NCBI GenBank assembly: GCA_013044175.1
Contig: JABEUY010000043.1
Location: forward strand, 1-41,161
Reading direction: 5' to 3'
Length of the DNA: 41,161 nt
Source of the DNA: Bacilli bacterium
GTDB taxonomy: Bacteria; Bacillota; Bacilli; Alicyclobacillales; SLC66
Both the position numbers and the translations under genes were made by a program. Under the pieces are notes generated by a model. It was not told the origin of the DNA. It worked only from the letters and a program-made list of their open reading frames with translations, and ran no database searches. Positions 12,190 to 37,164 of this stretch are shown here, in pieces. The first letter of the stretch is position 1, and each line of letters opens with the position of its first letter.

Positions 12190-12250
12190 CTTTTGACCAT
12201 CCTCCAAAAATGGGATAACGGTCAGTTTAACCTGCTTATTAGCAATTTAT

Positions 12251-13885
12251 TCACATCGTCACAAGACCCCGACGATCACCATTTTTATTCATACGGGAAG
12301 ATTTTTTGCGACGCACTCTAGGCATATTCGGTAAACGGATCGTTGACCATTGTGGTTGGTGTCGAACCATCTTGGCACAAAGCACCGTCATATCGTCATT
12401 GATTTTTCCTCCAGCAACACGCACTGCAGCTTCAAGCAAAAAATCGGCTACCATTTGCGGATCAACAGACTCATAACGTTCAAGCTGTCGTTTGATCCAA
12501 ATCTCAGGATCTTCGCGAAAGGCGACAGCATCAAAGATACCGTCAGAGACAAAAATCACGATATCATTTTCAGCAAGCGTGATCGCTTTCGTTTGAACAT
12601 CGATATCGGCGAGAATCCCGATGGGAACATTTTCACCACGGATTGCAAAAACATTACGTCCTTCTTTGATAAAGCTCGTCACCGATCCGATTTTTAAGAG
12701 TTCAACATGTAGTGTGTATAGGTTGATAACAGCCAGATCTAAGGTAGTATACATCTCTTTTTCAGAACGCAAGACAAGAGCTGAATTCACCGTTTTAATC
12801 GCCACTTGTTCATCAAAACCCGCTTTAAGAAGTTGTGCAATCAACGTAACCGCGGCACCTGATTCACGACTAGCCTCTTCGCCATTACCCATGCCATCAC
12901 TGATCGCAATCGCATAACGTCCATCACCAACGTCTGTTGCACAATACGAATCGCCACTTTTCACCGTACCATCCTTGGCAGCACAAGCTACACCGTAGAC
13001 AACATCATAGCTTCGAGCTGACACGAGCGTGACGAGTTGACACGTCCCATCTGGTGATTTTTCCATACTGCGTACACCGATCGTTTCTCCGAGGATATCG
13101 GATAATAATGGGGCTACAAGTTTTTTACATTCATCTTGTTCGGATGGTTCAAGTTGAAAAATACGAATAAGGACATTACCTTCTTCTAACGAAACAATAT
13201 CAATCGCTTGCATCTCAAGACCTAATCGACTAATCGCCGCCATGATCTGTACTTCATGCTGATGATTCAACCCTGTCTCTCGACGAACTTCTTGCGATAA
13301 ATCATCGAGAATCGTCGCAACACCGCCAAGTTGTGAGGCGATCAATTGTCTTGAATTCGCCAAGCCTGGATGCTGCGTCAAGGCACTCGCATCATGAAAC
13401 GCATAGGCAAGTTCTTCAAATACATGACTCACCGCCTCCATCCGCGAACTCATCAATTCACGGATTTTACGCGAAAAAGCTTGAGCATTTTGCTCATGTT
13501 CAACCGTACCTGGGACATACGGCAAGAGACGATGCCATGCGCGTCGAGGCGTAATCGCAAATACAATGATCGCTAACAAGGATGTAAAAATCGTATGTAT
13601 TGCGCTTTGCATGGGCATGAAATAAAACGCTAACGCACTGACGCCTAGCAAAAAGGCACCGAAAATCACGATTCGTCGACTGTCTTTTACCATGCCCGCT
13701 AAAACTCCACATAAGCCAAAAACGCTAATCAAAGCAGCATCTTGTACTTGATTTAAAGCGAAAATAACGCCGATGATTAAGCCAACAGCTCCGGCAACAC
13801 CAGCTCCTGCCAAGCTTGCTGTCAATAAAATCACATAAAAGGCACTTAGTACTTCTAAGGATATCCCGTGATACGTCAGGTCCAT
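12251..13885 (-). CDS. spoIIE: Stage II sporulation protein E, C-terminal part (PP2C phosphatase), separated by a frameshift
   Basis: SpoIIE dephosphorylates the anti-anti-sigma factor SpoIIAA, releasing sigma-F in the forespore, and binds FtsZ at the polar septum. This 544-codon frame holds the last transmembrane helices (to about residue 115), the conserved YVPGTVEHEQNAQAFSRKI segment, the central helical region and the PP2C domain with AISDGMGNGEEA, TLDLAVINLY, FVSDGIFD and KINDDMTVL (metal-binding aspartates present). It begins in mid-membrane domain. The first half lies in another frame (see next entry). ATG 13885 is the first start after a TGA at 13895-13897. The central region is about 80-90 residues shorter than I recall for B. 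subtilis and lacks its cysteines. Confidence 0.85.
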   Translation of the reverse strand: MDLTYHGISLEVLSAFYVILLTASLAGAGVAGAVGLIIGVIFALNQVQDAALISVFGLCGVLAGMVKDSRRIVIFGAFLLGVSALAFYFMPMQSAIHTIFTSLLAIIVFAITPRRAWHRLLPYVPGTVEHEQNAQAFSRKIRELMSSRMEAVSHVFEELAYAFHDASALTQHPGLANSRQLIASQLGGVATILDDLSQEVRRETGLNHQHEVQIMAAISRLGLEMQAIDIVSLEEGNVLIRIFQLEPSEQDECKKLVAPLLSDILGETIGVRSMEKSPDGTCQLVTLVSARSYDVVYGVACAAKDGTVKSGDSYCATDVGDGRYAIAISDGMGNGEEASRESGAAVTLIAQLLKAGFDEQVAIKTVNSALVLRSEKEMYTTLDLAVINLYTLHVELLKIGSVTSFIKEGRNVFAIRGENVPIGILADIDVQTKAITLAENDIVIFVSDGIFDAVAFREDPEIWIKRQLERYESVDPQMVADFLLEAAVRVAGGKINDDMTVLCAKMVRHQPQWSTIRLPNMPRVRRKKSSRMNKNGDRRGLVTM

Positions 13886-14465
13886 GAAGACCCGTCAACA
13901 TGGAAGACAACGCGATGACCATAGCGATAATCTCGTCGATACGAAGTTGTGTATGCGGTCGCAGTGTCGTAACCATTGCGGGAATTTGCAATGCCATCGA
14001 GGTCATCAAAAAACTCAAGGCTCCATCCACGAAAGAAATCACGATCGTATAAAGGGATAGTCCCGTAATGGGGAGATAAAAGCCAAGGCGAAAACCGGTA
14101 TCGACTAAAAAAACCATGAAAGGCAAGAGAGAAAGTTCGATCGCTTCGATCCGTCGCCATAGAATGATCAAGCCATAAAAGGCGAGCATCATGGAAACGA
14201 CAAGCCAGGGATTCGTACCCTCTGCACGCATCGTCCACGCGCCAATCGTCAACCCAGCGCCGACCCAAAGCGCTGTTTTTTTGCGCATGAACAAAGCGGT
14301 TGCAAACGCTGGTAAGACACAAGGAAACAAAGCGTGCAGGAATACGACTCGTCCCAAAATAACACCGGCCGAACAAGCGATTAACAAAAACACAAGTCGC
14401 TTTGACACGGACAAATTGGGTTGGCGAACTGATTTTCTTGCAATGACACGTAATTTCTCTTGCAT
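13725..14465 (-). CDS. spoIIE: Stage II sporulation protein E, N-terminal membrane part, separated by a frameshift
   Basis: This frame encodes the start of SpoIIE: a basic N-terminus (QEKLRVIARKSVRQ) and about six transmembrane helices, continuing to IDEIIAMVIALSSMLTGLHG at about residue 195. Beyond that the reading becomes non-homologous (PDVSRDILRS and so on). The true continuation, LTYHGISLEVLSAFYVILL, is one base further on in the other frame. Removing one base near 13881 would join LTGLHG to LTYHG, matching the B. subtilis order LTGLAG-LSYQG. ATG 14465 follows GGTGG at 9 bases. The gap to the divergent deaminase gene holds a Spo0A-type promoter candidate. Confidence 0.8.
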   Translation of the reverse strand: MQEKLRVIARKSVRQPNLSVSKRLVFLLIACSAGVILGRVVFLHALFPCVLPAFATALFMRKKTALWVGAGLTIGAWTMRAEGTNPWLVVSMMLAFYGLIILWRRIEAIELSLLPFMVFLVDTGFRLGFYLPITGLSLYTIVISFVDGALSFLMTSMALQIPAMVTTLRPHTQLRIDEIIAMVIALSSMLTGLHGPDVSRDILRSTKCLLCDFIDSKLGRSWCCRSCWLNHRRYFRFKSSTRCCFD

Positions 14466-14486
14466 CAAAAGACACCACCCGTTTTT

Positions 14487-31316: not shown

Positions 31317-32165
31317 TCAACACGTGCGACATAGATAAACCTCTTTATAATCGCTTTTGATCTCATGATAGATACGTTTTGCTCGTTGTTCTCTCGTGAC
31401 GATCGCAAATACGGTCGGTCCACTTCCCGACATTCGTACCATCTGACCACCAAGTCGTACAAGATGTGCGATGATTTTGTCGATCTCAGGGTGCATCGAT
31501 AACGTTACGGCTTCAAGCACATTGCCCATAGCTTCTTGCATCTTGCCGATATCAGCCGACTCAATCGCTTCGATCATCGACTGCGTTTGCGGCCGGACTA
31601 CGATCTGATCAAGACGTAAAGCTCGGTAGACATCGGCGGTTGACACCGCGATCGCTGGTTTGACAAGGATCACCCAAAAGCAGGGCTTGACGTCAATCGG
31701 TTCGACCACTTCGCCTCGACCGCGAACAATTGCGGTACCTCCATAGATACAAAACGGCACATCCGATCCAACTTTCGCACCAATGACAGCCAATTCATCA
31801 TCGGTCAAACCTAATTGCCACAATCGATTGAGTCCACGCAAAACAGCCGCAGCATCGGCGGAACCCCCCGCGAGCCCTGCGGCAACTGGAATACGCTTAT
31901 CGATCTCAATGGTCACACCTTTTTGCACAGAACAGGCAATACGCAGTGCATCTGCCGCTTGCCAAGCCAAGTTTCGCTCATCGTTAGGTATGAAAGGCGC
32001 TTGACAACGAACTACAATCTGTCCATCTTGACGCTCTTCAAACGTAAGATAATCACACAGATCAACCGTCTGCATGATCATCTCTACTTCATGGTAATTG
32101 TCTTCTCTTTTGCCCAATACGTCGAGGGTGAGATTGATCTTCGCCCGCGCATTTTCAAAAATCAT
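31317..32165 (-). CDS. ispE: 4-diphosphocytidyl-2-C-methyl-D-erythritol kinase
   Basis: IspE phosphorylates CDP-methylerythritol in the MEP route to isoprenoids. The 282-residue GHMP kinase begins MIFENARAKINLTLDVLGKREDNYHEV's hallmark ARAKINLTL, has the ATP loop PVAAGLAGGSADAAA (about 90-104), the catalytic Asp of GSDVPFCIYGGTA, and MSGSGPTVFA near the C-terminus. ATG 32165 is the family start, and an in-frame extension to 32189 adds eight residues. It is 54 bases after cphA, with no terminator between. In B. subtilis the upstream neighbour is the small acid-soluble protein gene sspF, absent here. Confidence 0.96.
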   Translation of the reverse strand: MIFENARAKINLTLDVLGKREDNYHEVEMIMQTVDLCDYLTFEERQDGQIVVRCQAPFIPNDERNLAWQAADALRIACSVQKGVTIEIDKRIPVAAGLAGGSADAAAVLRGLNRLWQLGLTDDELAVIGAKVGSDVPFCIYGGTAIVRGRGEVVEPIDVKPCFWVILVKPAIAVSTADVYRALRLDQIVVRPQTQSMIEAIESADIGKMQEAMGNVLEAVTLSMHPEIDKIIAHLVRLGGQMVRMSGSGPTVFAIVTREQRAKRIYHEIKSDYKEVYLCRTC

Positions 32166-32219
32166 GTTAAAAATCGCCCCCGCAACCACTATACCATAAC
32201 CATACGGGCACGAGGGGAT

Positions 32220-34889
32220 TTATACAAGGATCGAAGCGTTGACTACTTTCGTTTTTTTGGCCTGCTCTTGAAAAAAATCGTGTACGTCAACAGCTTGCGC
32301 CTGCAATTCTTGCATCAACGTTTCAACTGGGGAAAGCACCTCATAAAACACGAGAATCACGGGTACTGTCACACATTCACGAATCGCCTGCGAAAGAGCA
32401 ACCCGTTCATTTTCCATCGCGACGACATGAATCGTAGGTTCAATCTCCTGAATGGCCTTTACCAATAAACTCAGCATCGCACCGGGTTGGCGTCCGCGTT
32501 TGTCGACATCCTCCTTGACATAAATCGGTGCAAAGAAGCGTGTCGCCTCTTGCGCTGCTTCGATGAGAATCTGATCAGCCCTATCGCCAGGAAAACCGAT
32601 GACAGCCGGAATCTTTCGACCAAATAGTCGCGACATCATCGTACCGATCGCCTCCATACCATGCGTATTGTGTCCATAATCAGCAACGACATAACGACCA
32701 CAAGGCAAGCGGTAGATCATCAAACGTCCGCGATTTTGAAGGCGAGGCACAAAGCCAGATACATACGTCGCGATCTGTTCTCTCGACAATCCCAAGTGAC
32801 GTGTCGCAGCGATCGCTTGCATCACGTTGGCGATATGAAACCGCGCATGACCAAACCATGTAATAGCAAGGTGATCAACACGCAAGATCGGGTATTTTTT
32901 TCCCTCAAAAAACTCGATGATCATACCATCGATCAACACATAGGCGCGATGTCCATGCTTAATGTGCTCTTGTAAAGCAGGGAGATCCTCCTCAAGACTC
33001 GTCAACACAACGGGATGCGAAAGCTTTGTAGACAGACGAAGTAAAGCTTCATCTTGCGCATTGATAATCGCGATCCCATGCTCGAGTAATCTTTCCACGA
33101 CCAAAGATTTCGTATGAAGGATATCTTCTTTTGAAGCTAATCCATCTTGCCCGAGATGATCGTCAGAAAGATTGGTGATAATGCCAATATCCGCAAAATC
33201 ATACCCCAATCCACCGCGCAAAATACCCCCGCGCGCCGTCTCCAAGACCGCGATCTCCACAGTTGGATCGGCTAAGACCAATCTTGCACTTTGCGGCCCT
33301 GTCGTATCACCCACCATCACTTGTTCATGGCCAATCGTGATGCCTTCTGTCGTCGTCATGCCCACACAGTATCCTGCTTGACCAAGAAGATAACCAATCA
33401 TCCGCGTCGTGGTCGTCTTGCCATTCGTACCTGTAATCGCGATGATCGGCACGCGCGCCTGTACACCAGGTGCAAAAGCATGATCGAGCAACGCCTTGGC
33501 GACATTGCGAGTTTGTCCTACGCTTGGATAATGATGCATACGAATCCCTGGCGCCGCATTGACTTCAAGAACGACCCATTTACCCTTTTCAAACTGCGCG
33601 ATATCCTGCGCGATCAAATCAATGCCACAGATATCAAGCCCGATGGTCGTTGCCACGCGTTTTGCCACGCGTAGAAAACCGTCATGAACTTGTTGTGTGA
33701 CATCGATCGCGATGCCGCCCGTACTCAAATTAGCACTATCGCGAAGCCAGATATACTCATCTCGCTTTGCGACATCATAAATCGTCCGATTTTTTTCTTG
33801 TAAAAAAAGTTTCGCCGTCTCATCCAGGCGGATTTTCGTCAATGGCTTCTCATGCCCGTCACCACGAAGCGGATCAAGATTGATCATGGAAACCAACTCT
33901 TCAATCGTGTGCACCCCATCACCGATCACATGAGCAGGCAGTCTTTGCGATGCAGCAACCACTTGACCATCGATGACCATCAAGCGATACTGTTGTCCGT
34001 TCACGATTTGTTCCACAAGAACTGCCTGGGAAAAACGTTGCGCTACACCGAACGCTTTCGCTAACTGTTCGGGTGTTTGAACACCCATCGTGACGCCATT
34101 GCCTTGACAACTATCGCGTGGCTTCACGACGACAGGCTTTTGCAGTGACGAATACACTTGTAGCGCTTCTCGAACATCATAAACCACACTTCCTTCTGGC
34201 ACCGCAATGCCAGCATCACTTAACAAACGTTTCGTCAACACCTTATCACTTGCGATATCCACAGCGATCGCACTCGTAGCTGGTCCAACCGTCGCCTCAA
34301 ACAATCGACGGTATTTACCCGTACCCAATTGCACCAAACTCGAAGCACGGGCAATTCTGCGCACAGGTATGTGCCGTCGTTGCGCTTCCTCAACAAGCGC
34401 ACGCGTACTTGGACCGAGATCATACTTCGCGGCGATCCGTTTGCCTTCTTCGAGCTTTTCCTCCAGTGCAAATGGCGTATCAAAAACGCATGCTTGAACG
34501 AGTTCCATGGCTGTCAACAAAGCAAACTGTCCGACTTCCTCACAACCATACTCCATCACGATATCGTACAAAGAAGGTTCCCCTGCATTGCGCGTCTTAC
34601 CGAAATTTGTAGTATAGCCAAGAACCGTCTGAAGCTCCAAGGCGACATGTTCGATGATATGACCAAAATAAGTACCACCATAAAGTCGCTCAACAAACCC
34701 TCCTGGCCGCTTCATCGCGCAGTGATGATCGTAAAGGCCCGGACAAAGCGCAAGAAGACGTTCGACAAACCCCGGATATTCATCGCTGTCGCGCTCGGTA
34801 AACGCCATCAAATCGATGCGCATCACGATCACAGGTCGATCCACATAGACATTTGGTCCTTCGATGACACGCATGGTGACCATCTTCAA
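32220..34889 (-). CDS. cphA: Cyanophycin synthetase
   Basis: CphA polymerises aspartate and arginine, with ATP, into multi-L-arginyl-poly-L-aspartate, an insoluble nitrogen/carbon reserve. At 889 residues it is full CphA1 length. The N-domain (about 1-165) has YPGFVERLLALCPGL, GGFVERLYGGTYFGHIIEHV and ALELQ. The ATP-grasp domain (about 217-472) has KPRDSCQGNG, LVEQIVNGQQYRLMVIDG and LEVNAAPG. The Mur-ligase-like domain starts near 480 with ITGTNGKTTTTRMIG, then TTEGI, ETARGGILRGGLGYDFADIG and YGHNTHGMEA. The ATP-grasp loop KPRDSCQGNG differs from the KPxDGNHGRG I recall in cyanobacteria. The TTG start at 34889 overlaps the cphB stop (TTGA) and has AAGGAG 9 bases upstream. ATG 34883 is an alternative. 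Confidence 0.93.
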   Translation of the reverse strand: MKMVTMRVIEGPNVYVDRPVIVMRIDLMAFTERDSDEYPGFVERLLALCPGLYDHHCAMKRPGGFVERLYGGTYFGHIIEHVALELQTVLGYTTNFGKTRNAGEPSLYDIVMEYGCEEVGQFALLTAMELVQACVFDTPFALEEKLEEGKRIAAKYDLGPSTRALVEEAQRRHIPVRRIARASSLVQLGTGKYRRLFEATVGPATSAIAVDIASDKVLTKRLLSDAGIAVPEGSVVYDVREALQVYSSLQKPVVVKPRDSCQGNGVTMGVQTPEQLAKAFGVAQRFSQAVLVEQIVNGQQYRLMVIDGQVVAASQRLPAHVIGDGVHTIEELVSMINLDPLRGDGHEKPLTKIRLDETAKLFLQEKNRTIYDVAKRDEYIWLRDSANLSTGGIAIDVTQQVHDGFLRVAKRVATTIGLDICGIDLIAQDIAQFEKGKWVVLEVNAAPGIRMHHYPSVGQTRNVAKALLDHAFAPGVQARVPIIAITGTNGKTTTTRMIGYLLGQAGYCVGMTTTEGITIGHEQVMVGDTTGPQSARLVLADPTVEIAVLETARGGILRGGLGYDFADIGIITNLSDDHLGQDGLASKEDILHTKSLVVERLLEHGIAIINAQDEALLRLSTKLSHPVVLTSLEEDLPALQEHIKHGHRAYVLIDGMIIEFFEGKKYPILRVDHLAITWFGHARFHIANVMQAIAATRHLGLSREQIATYVSGFVPRLQNRGRLMIYRLPCGRYVVADYGHNTHGMEAIGTMMSRLFGRKIPAVIGFPGDRADQILIEAAQEATRFFAPIYVKEDVDKRGRQPGAMLSLLVKAIQEIEPTIHVVAMENERVALSQAIRECVTVPVILVFYEVLSPVETLMQELQAQAVDVHDFFQEQAKKTKVVNASILV

Positions 34890-35710
34890 GACTGTTCACT
34901 CCTTACCGTACTCGCTGGTATCGGCTGGCGATTACGCAAATCAAAGCGATCACCAGCCGGCAGCACATGAAGTTTGACGCCGTGTAATGCGAGGGCGTCA
35001 CCTTCTTGTAACGATCCGACATTGGAAAACCACAAAGCACCAGCATCGACCACAGAAACAGCACCTTTACCCATCACCGTAAATTGGGCATCTTTCACGA
35101 TTACCGCCGTGTCTTCATCGATTCCAAGACCCAGATGATGAGGATACTGCGCCACTGCAACCAATAATCGACCGAGTCTACCGCGCTGGGCAAAATGCTG
35201 ATCGATCACAACACCTTCGATAAACTCCATACCTGGTGCCATCTCAACGACCCCGACCCGTGGATTCGTCTTGTTATTGCCCTCTACAATCATCGTACTG
35301 CTCATCATCGAGGCTCCTGCACTCGTTCCCCCTAGCACCAAACCTTGTTCGTGGCGCGTATGCAACGCAGCATCGATCTTCGTTCCACCCAAGAGCGTGG
35401 TGATGCGTATCTGCTCGCCACCAGTAAAAAACACGCCCGTTGCGTCTTCAATCGCAGCCACCGCACTTTGACGGTCTGCTGCCTCGCGTGAAGACACATC
35501 AAACATGCGCACGTCCTTGACACCAATCGTCGTAAAGACATCGACATAAAGCGATCCGATCTCGATCGGCTTCGCTGTCGCCACCGTCATCACGACAAGA
35601 CGCGCATGCATGCCGCCAGCTTTGTCGACAAAAGCACGCAGGATCTCCTTATGACCTTCTTTGTCTTCCGCACCGCCAATGATAATCAGTTCCCCTTTGC
35701 TGGTTTCCAT
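34886..35710 (-). CDS. cphB: Cyanophycinase
   Basis: CphB is an intracellular serine exopeptidase of the peptidase S51 family that releases beta-Asp-Arg dipeptides from cyanophycin. In the 274-residue form, GELIIIGGAEDKEG opens the fold, FFTGGEQIRI follows at about 95, the nucleophile is Ser130 in GGTSAGAS, and DQHF (His172) and GIDEDTAV (Glu199) supply the probable triad residues. No signal peptide is seen, so it should act in the cytoplasm. ATG 35710 begins where homologues do but has only AAGG two bases upstream. GTG 35725 is possible. The TTG at 35797 lies in the veg terminator and is rejected. It overlaps cphA, an obvious make-and-use pair. Confidence 0.9.
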   Translation of the reverse strand: METSKGELIIIGGAEDKEGHKEILRAFVDKAGGMHARLVVMTVATAKPIEIGSLYVDVFTTIGVKDVRMFDVSSREAADRQSAVAAIEDATGVFFTGGEQIRITTLLGGTKIDAALHTRHEQGLVLGGTSAGASMMSSTMIVEGNNKTNPRVGVVEMAPGMEFIEGVVIDQHFAQRGRLGRLLVAVAQYPHHLGLGIDEDTAVIVKDAQFTVMGKGAVSVVDAGALWFSNVGSLQEGDALALHGVKLHVLPAGDRFDLRNRQPIPASTVRSEQS

Positions 35711-35794
35711 CGCCTTGTTGGCCACGCACCTTTCTGCACCATAAAACCGCAAAGTTGTCACGCAGTTAGATTTTCCGATTGGCGTCACGCTATA

Positions 35795-35843
35795 CAAAAA
35801 AGGCGTTATCCTTCCATCTACCTGATGGAAGAGATAACGCCTT
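35795..35843 (-). terminator. Long intrinsic terminator of veg
   Basis: As transcribed, AAGGCGTTATC pairs with GATAACGCCTT and an inner TTCCATC pairs with GATGGAA, with a small asymmetric bulge between them and a 5-base loop, followed by TTTTTTG. It lies 19 bases past the veg stop and separates veg from cphB. Confidence 0.92.
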
Positions 35844-35862: not shown

Positions 35863-36141
35863 TTATGATTCGAAGGCACCGATCCGCATAAGATCATCAC
35901 CGCGATATACCGTAAGCTCTACTGAATCCGTCAGGATATCCGCATAACTATAGGATACACGTTTTACCGATTGATCGGTTTGATCCAGTTTCACGACGAA
36001 AACAGATGGGTATGTTTCTTCAAGGATGCCTGTACGTTCAATCGTCTTGCGACGACCCCCATTTGCACGGAGAACGATCTTTTCACCGACAAAACCTTCT
36101 AAGTTACGCTTAATATCATGCAAAGCGCTCTTCGCCGCCAC
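35863..36141 (-). CDS. veg: Veg protein
   Basis: Veg is a small, abundantly made protein. In B. subtilis it stimulates biofilm matrix genes by acting against SinR, and its biochemical activity is not settled. The 92-residue protein contains [27 protein letters not shown] and [19 protein letters not shown], nearly identical to the family. The start is GTG 36141, 5-6 bases after GAGGTGG. GTG 36150 lies inside that Shine-Dalgarno. Homologues likewise begin two or three residues before the DIKR segment. Two tandem sigma-A promoters and a strong terminator make it a single-gene unit. Confidence 0.95.
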
Positions 36142-36166
36142 ACACGCCACCTCTTTCTACTGTAAA

Positions 36167-36195
36167 AGTATAGCATGCGATGTGTGACATGTCAA
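36167..36195 (-). promoter_or_regulatory. veg promoter P2 (proximal), sigma-A
   Basis: TTGACA (36190-36195) and TATACT (36167-36172) are exactly 17 bases apart, about 26 bases before the veg start. Confidence 0.8.
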
Positions 36196-36204
36196 AAATT
36201 TTTT

Positions 36205-36234
36205 ATTATATCAACGAGTAATTTTATTTGTCAA
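36205..36234 (-). promoter_or_regulatory. veg promoter P1 (distal), sigma-A
   Basis: TTGACA (36229-36234) and TATAAT (36205-36210) are 18 bases apart. The spacer contains ACTCGTTGA, resembling the spacer of the very strong B. subtilis veg promoter as I remember it. Confidence 0.8.
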
Positions 36235-36279
36235 TCACCCGAACGGACTTGGTAATAATTACTGTCTTTCAAAACCCTT

Positions 36280-37164
36280 TCATTCCATTATAGGGAATTT
36301 ATTAGTAAGATAAAGGAATTCTTCGAGCGTTAGTGTCTCACCACGGCGCTGTGGATCGATCATTGCACTACCCAGCCAGGCCTGCACGCCTTCTTTACCA
36401 AGATGAGAAAACTCCGCGCGAAGCGCATTATGCAACGTTTTTCGCCGCATCGCAAAAGCCGCTTTAACCACGCGAAAAAACAATATTTCGGCTTGCGGAT
36501 TCTCAGCTAGTGGTCGCTGTTCCTTCATCGCCAAAGCGACAACCGCTGAATCGACATTCGGTTTAGGCATAAAACTACCTGCTGGTACGATCGTCACAAT
36601 GCGTGGTGTCGCATAGTACTGCACCGCGACGGTGATTGCACCATACTCCTTCGTACCAGCATGTGCCGTCAGTCGTTGTGCCACTTCTTTTTGCACCATG
36701 ATCACCATGCGTCGAAAGGGCACATGAGCTTCGAGAAATCGCATCAACAACGGCGTCGTGATGTAATAAGGCAGATTGGCGGCAAAACACAGATTCGATC
36801 CTGCAGGCGCCTTCGCAAGAATGGGTTCAAGATCCATCGATAACGCATCGCCAAAATGTACATCGACATTATCGTAATCGCCAAGAGTCTCTTGTAAAAT
36901 CGGAACCAATGAGGTGTCCTTCTCAATCGTCAAAACTTTTGCGAAACCTTCCTCACACAACGCTTGGGTCAATGTGCCCAGTCCCGGCCCGACTTCAAGC
37001 ACACTGCACTGTGCTGCGTCATCATCACCGCAAACAGCATCGATGATCTCTTCGAGCGCATGACGATCGATCAGAAAATTCTGACCAAATCCCTTTTTAG
37101 CACGAATCGTATGGCGATCCATCAAAGCGCGAAGCACGGTCGGTTGATATAATCTATCTTTCAT
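36280..37164 (-). CDS. rsmA: 16S rRNA dimethyltransferase RsmA (KsgA)
   Basis: RsmA dimethylates the two adjacent adenines near the 3' end of 16S rRNA, a late step of small-subunit assembly. The 294-residue SAM enzyme shows KKGFGQNFLIDRHALE, motif I VLEVGPGLGTLTQ, ALSMDLEPI, the catalytic motif IV FAANLPYYITTPLL (NLPY), VMVQKEVA-like IMVQKEVAQRL and FMPKPNVDSAVV. ATG 37164 has GGAGG six bases upstream and lies inside the end of rnmV (11-base overlap), so the pair is coupled. ATG 37176 overlaps the Shine-Dalgarno. Confidence 0.96.
   Translation of the reverse strand: MKDRLYQPTVLRALMDRHTIRAKKGFGQNFLIDRHALEEIIDAVCGDDDAAQCSVLEVGPGLGTLTQALCEEGFAKVLTIEKDTSLVPILQETLGDYDNVDVHFGDALSMDLEPILAKAPAGSNLCFAANLPYYITTPLLMRFLEAHVPFRRMVIMVQKEVAQRLTAHAGTKEYGAITVAVQYYATPRIVTIVPAGSFMPKPNVDSAVVALAMKEQRPLAENPQAEILFFRVVKAAFAMRRKTLHNALRAEFSHLGKEGVQAWLGSAMIDPQRRGETLTLEEFLYLTNKFPIME

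Follow-up and report, generated by a model that had tools for sequence, protein, structure and literature searches.

Gene order, promoter patterns and phylogeny suggest, with a probability that we put at roughly 0.7, that the cyanophycinase and cyanophycin synthetase genes (cphB and cphA) of this Bacilli bacterium form an old, vertically kept two-gene operon in a yabG-veg-sspF-[cphBA]-ispE cluster, read by a forespore sigma factor (sigma-F alone or together with sigma-G) from a promoter of its own. The stretch analyzed, here called the window, comprises the 41,161 nucleotides of contig JABEUY010000043.1 (assembly GCA_013044175.1). What appears to be new is the arrangement upstream of the pair, in which a strong terminator closes veg and is followed by a putative forespore-type promoter of cphBA.

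Identity of the cphB and cphA genes

Both genes lie on the reverse strand. cphB (34886-35710) probably starts at an ATG at 35710, and its stop codon, ending at 34886, overlaps by four bases (TTGA) the TTG start, at 34889, of cphA (32220-34889; 889 aa). The pair is flanked upstream by veg (35863-36150, reverse strand; NF046033) and downstream by ispE (31317-32189, reverse strand; TIGR00154); open reading frames and coordinates agree with the placement given in the initial annotation. Profile searches confirm veg, ispE, purR, ksgA, and rnmV as neighbors.

The same annotation had credited both proteins with their catalytic motifs, and this is upheld by curated family cut-offs and by alignment to solved structures. 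CphA scores 1063 bits against TIGR02068 (cut-off 850; residues 2-862) and CphB 309 bits against TIGR02069 (cut-off 126.6). CphA consists of an N-terminal PF18921 domain, an ATP-grasp domain, and a Mur ligase domain, with both ATP sites intact; it aligns over its full length with the solved cyanophycin synthetase 7lg5, keeping the ATP-grasp and the P-loop (GTNGKTTT). The HxxEH motif (H77, E80, H81), E442/N444, and the P-loop lysine K491 are invariant across 18 sequences; this N-domain motif is intact in the window protein, whereas the solved 7txv carries an E to Q change there relative to 7lg5. CphB, a PF03575 protein, retains the GTSAGA nucleophile motif and DQHF..R.R..R when aligned with the solved cyanophycinases 7uqv and 3en0. 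Compared with its counterparts in 39 Bacilli relatives, CphA of the window deviates at 12 otherwise near-invariant columns, none of them in catalytic motifs, and CphB at one conserved column. Judged by sequence, the two genes encode intact members of the cyanophycin synthetase and cyanophycinase families, and synthesis of the Asp/Arg polymer is the predicted activity of CphA.

CphA1 of the Synechocystis type (7lg5) and of Desulfitobacterium hafniense has the same order of domains (N, ATP-grasp, Mur ligase), the same motifs, and the same length, though the window protein is about 35-43% identical to homologs outside Bacilli and belongs to a Bacilli clade fixed in the sporulation cluster. Similarly, CphB shares the GTSAGA nucleophile motif, the arginine cluster, and TIGR02069 with cyanophycinases of family S51 (3en0, 7uqv), but its gene precedes and overlaps cphA and stands behind a candidate forespore-type promoter.

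Conservation and history of the locus

The window genome and 39 of its 40 relatives have cphA, with the gene in a few of them cut by contig ends or lying in two frames. The exception, G008, is an assembly of 73% completeness in which the sole match is Mur ligase-like. Wherever the loci of the relatives extend far enough, gene order is uniform: metG-tatD-rnmV-ksgA-DUF458-yabG-veg-sspF-cphB-cphA-ispE-purR-ridA-spoVG-glmU-prs; ispE adjoins cphA in every syntenic locus that reaches it. In a class-wide sample of Bacilli, 59 of 400 genomes passed the CphA cut-off, and the same order recurs in six other families (f14, f22, f29, f36, f37, f44). Beyond the class, a Peptococcaceae bacterium, Clostridium rectalis, and an unclassified Bacillota MAG have veg-cphB-cphA-ispE with some spacing; around its cphBA, C. 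rectalis has yabG as well as veg and ispE, and it carries the promoter pattern described below.

In the CphA tree, the syntenic Bacilli genes form one clade, within which families f1 and f2 are supported subclades. The Clostridia sequences fall outside this clade and the root is not determined, and the common descent of the slot across Bacilli and Clostridia therefore rests more on gene order than on the tree. A recent random insertion, the finding that the initial annotation had named as counting against its proposal, is excluded, since cphBA occurs order-wide and the Bacilli genes in the tree sort by family. Together, order and tree support an old operon, apparently inherited vertically at a fixed place in the sporulation gene cluster.

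cphBA of low similarity also occurs at other places in six other Bacilli; these copies (L172, L176, L179, L180, L181, L182) are 37-43% identical and were probably acquired separately. Separately, cphA lies in two frames in L071 (G035) and L182 (G396), a state that could reflect decay or sequencing error.

A candidate forespore promoter upstream of cphBA

In the window, two strong sigma-A-type promoters (36167-36234, reverse strand; consensus matches 12/12 and 11/12) precede veg, and an intrinsic terminator follows it (35796-35843, reverse strand), with a 19-pair hairpin and then a T run (-32 kcal/mol, z = -7.35). This terminator would shield cphBA from transcription that starts at those vegetative promoters. 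Immediately after it, and 56 bp upstream of the cphB ATG, comes GTATA-N14-GGAAAATCTA (35767-35795, reverse strand), an exact match to a pattern first recognized as a recurring GNATA-N14/15-GGNNANNNTR in the veg-cphB interval of the relatives and defined as GNATA and GGNNANNNTR placed 14-16 bp apart. This recurring pattern fits the forespore sigma consensus of B. subtilis, and cphBA thus carries, upstream of the operon and at the proper spacing, both elements by which a forespore-regulon promoter was recognized here.

Exact matches precede cphB in 26 of 46 loci (0.1 expected), as compared with 5 of 425 upstream regions from 11 other genes in these loci. The pattern was fixed after inspection of the sequences, and only the loci fetched later, some of them congeneric with the first set, provide an independent test; of these, 8 of 17 match. 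Across all syntenic loci, with spacings of 14-16, exact matches number 41 of 66 (~0.1 expected), and 57 of 66 match with at most one mismatch (~6 expected), leaving nine without even a one-mismatch match; because many of the loci are related, these counts are not independent events. By group, exact matches occur in 11/16 loci of f1, 18/30 of f2, 3/3 of f14, 4/7 of f37, and 3/4 of the syntenic Clostridia, and we regard the spread of exact matches over six Bacilli families and Clostridia as a stronger point than the counts. The exact pattern was found before none of seven non-syntenic Bacillota cphB genes and none of seven from other phyla. One-mismatch matches were observed in 5 of the 7 non-syntenic Bacillota (1.25 expected).

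Elsewhere in the 41-kb window the exact pattern occurs once more (two matches in all, 0.7 expected), at 12223-12252 on the reverse strand, and this second match serves as a positive control. The genes behind it, for a vWA protein and a protein kinase, form a yabS/yabT-like pair; among 13 family members, 9 have the pattern before yabS, and in B. subtilis expression of yabT depends on SigF (PMC3708118). Regions upstream of spoIIR were uninformative as a control, with the pattern in 1 of 31, and the pattern thus captures the sigma-F promoters of these genomes incompletely. In 10 of 41 loci it is also found before sspF, a sigma-G gene in B. subtilis, and for this reason it cannot separate sigma-F from sigma-G; the pattern would mark the forespore without telling the two factors apart. 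Genes of the yabT (sigma-F) and sspF (sigma-G) type thus share a promoter pattern with cphBA in the same genomes, though they serve spore development or DNA protection, whereas cphBA encodes the enzymes of a storage polymer.

Cyanobacteria use cyanophycin as a vegetative reserve, and on this precedent cphBA could be an ordinary vegetative nitrogen reserve, with its place in the sporulation cluster historical and its promoter pattern incidental or secondary. The adjoining veg, ispE, purR, and glmU are themselves vegetative genes, and C. ljungdahlii is reported to form granules in cells under gas fermentation and to catabolize arginine in culture (PMC13241827). However, patterns for sigma-A, E, K, H, and B were found before cphB in none of 62 Bacilli loci, 33 of which carry the forespore pattern, and no sigma-A-type promoter was found in the veg-cphB gap of the window, where transcription of veg is cut off by its terminator. 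Given also the excess of forespore matches over the syntenic loci, we consider a purely vegetative role unlikely.

A possible cyanophycin reserve of the spore

The forespore reading of the locus implies a particular order of events. With a promoter of its own downstream of the veg terminator, and a forespore sigma factor to read it, cphBA would allow the forespore, after asymmetric division, to make CphA. This enzyme would link Asp and Arg into cyanophycin, which would serve the maturing spore as a dense reserve or as filler. CphB would cut the polymer to beta-Asp-Arg, a step presumably most useful at germination, and IadA, in those relatives that have it, would free Asp and Arg from the dipeptide. 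cphBA is most likely part of the forespore program, which would place polymer synthesis in the spore and not in the mother cell, and the probable site of cyanophycin deposition is the spore itself. The initial annotation had proposed a nitrogen reserve of the mother cell or spore: its link to sporulation is strengthened by the conserved promoter and the fixed place in the sporulation cluster, whereas the evidence favors the spore compartment over the mother cell.

Studies in clostridia provide some precedent. CphA has been implicated in spore assembly in C. perfringens on the basis of spore proteomics and a mutant, as described in papers citing that work (Liu 2016, cited in PMC5532821 and PMC13241827), and in C. 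ljungdahlii cphB is among the up-regulated sporulation genes (PMC13241827). The clostridial genes, as those citing papers present them, likewise constitute a spore-former cphBA linked to spores; there the link comes from proteomics and a mutant, whereas here it comes from gene order and from a promoter that Bacilli and Clostridia share, and a compartment is predicted as well. As far as these citing accounts go, the C. perfringens mutant is the known hint as to why spore-forming Firmicutes carry cyanophycin genes. A paper on the C. perfringens sporulation transcriptome makes no mention of cyanophycin, and, among the papers searched, the one in which "cyanophycin" and "forespore" occur together deals, by title and abstract, with another subject.

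More broadly, cyanophycin may be an ancestral forespore product of Bacillota under sigma-F/sigma-G control, predating the split between Bacilli and Clostridia and lost in the B. subtilis lineage, a proposal to which we would give even odds. If true, an entire type of spore reserve has escaped notice because the model B. subtilis lacks cyanophycin, and the loss would explain why work on that organism never met the polymer. From a forespore-type promoter in a fixed sporulation neighborhood one would expect the spore to hold a store of nitrogen and arginine on which outgrowth could draw.

Gene losses and dipeptide use in the window genome

The initial annotation noted that the window encodes no isoaspartyl dipeptidase, which profile searches bear out, and reasoned that full use of the dipeptide would need one elsewhere. 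This holds for most relatives, where IadA is encoded away from cphBA (over cut-off in 34 of 41 genomes, or 34 of 40 relatives), but not for the 92%-complete window genome, which contains no match over cut-off to TIGR01975 (IadA; the best weak matches are NagA and another M38-like ORF) and none to PF01112 (IaaA). Judged by IadA and IaaA, the full cyanophycin utilization pathway thus appears incomplete at this step in that assembly. Arginase and agmatinase are present. Neighbors of iadA are not conserved within the family. According to a previous survey, only 10% of Firmicutes with CphA1 have IadA or IaaA, and the enzyme in the rest was termed undiscovered (PMC10206079); within this order, IadA is the rule. 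In one relative the IadA gene is in fragments (G021:C1:1051453-1052293) and cphBA is kept.

Additional losses surround the operon. sspF, which B. subtilis has at this position, is found in most relatives between veg and cphB and is absent there in the window, where the veg-cphB gap measures 158 bp; among relatives this gap is mostly 320-640 bp long. yabG and a DUF458/YkuK-like gene, located between ksgA and veg in the relatives whose loci reach that far, are missing as well (36150-36280), leaving a ksgA-veg gap of 132 bp. The whole window assembly contains no match to the YabG family; of 18 family genomes, 16 have one, and the incomplete G008 is the second that does not. G026 and G031 likewise lack sspF at the slot and keep yabG; the combined loss of sspF and yabG is confined, among the genomes compared, to the window genome. 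In the window organism, operon and promoter would thus have outlasted sspF, yabG, and, on the evidence of this assembly, IadA.

The window genome retains SigE, SigG, SpoIIGA, SpoIVA, SpoVT, YabQ, and one alpha/beta SASP, as well as a SpoIIR-like protein just below cut-off. spoIIE (12251-14468, reverse strand) lies in two frames, as ORFs of 544 and 247 aa that jointly cover SpoIIE_N and the phosphatase; the frameshift, at ~13870-13890, may be an assembly error. Because spoIIE is split and sspF, yabG, and IadA are missing, the organism may sporulate differently or poorly.

These losses could also indicate that the operon is a remnant in a lineage where sporulation and cyanophycin use are decaying, and the terminal branch of the window CphA (0.83) is the longest of its family. 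Such decay seems very unlikely, however, since catalytic motifs, promoter, and terminator are all intact, as are SigE, SigG, SpoIIGA, and SpoIVA; CphB deviates at a single conserved column, and IadA is missing too in the nearly complete genomes G005, G012, and G034, which keep cphBA. The distance of the window CphA to family f2 is 1.15 times that of its kin, no more than for ridA, tatD, or veg. Accelerated evolution of CphA was likewise considered and set aside, as the branch is long yet the relative distance is no higher than that of several neighbors.

The initial annotation, seeing cphBA where sspF would sit in a window without that gene, had suggested that the polymer enzymes took over the slot in the service of mother cell or spore; this is scarcely credible, because sspF adjoins cphBA in one shared order in nearly all relatives and in the six other Bacilli families, the loss of sspF in the window is accompanied by that of yabG and the DUF458-like gene, and the sigma-E and sigma-K patterns of mother-cell service are absent before cphB. 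In G002, sspF is inverted upstream of cphB (L044:1-400), beside an apparent 3' end of a group II intron.
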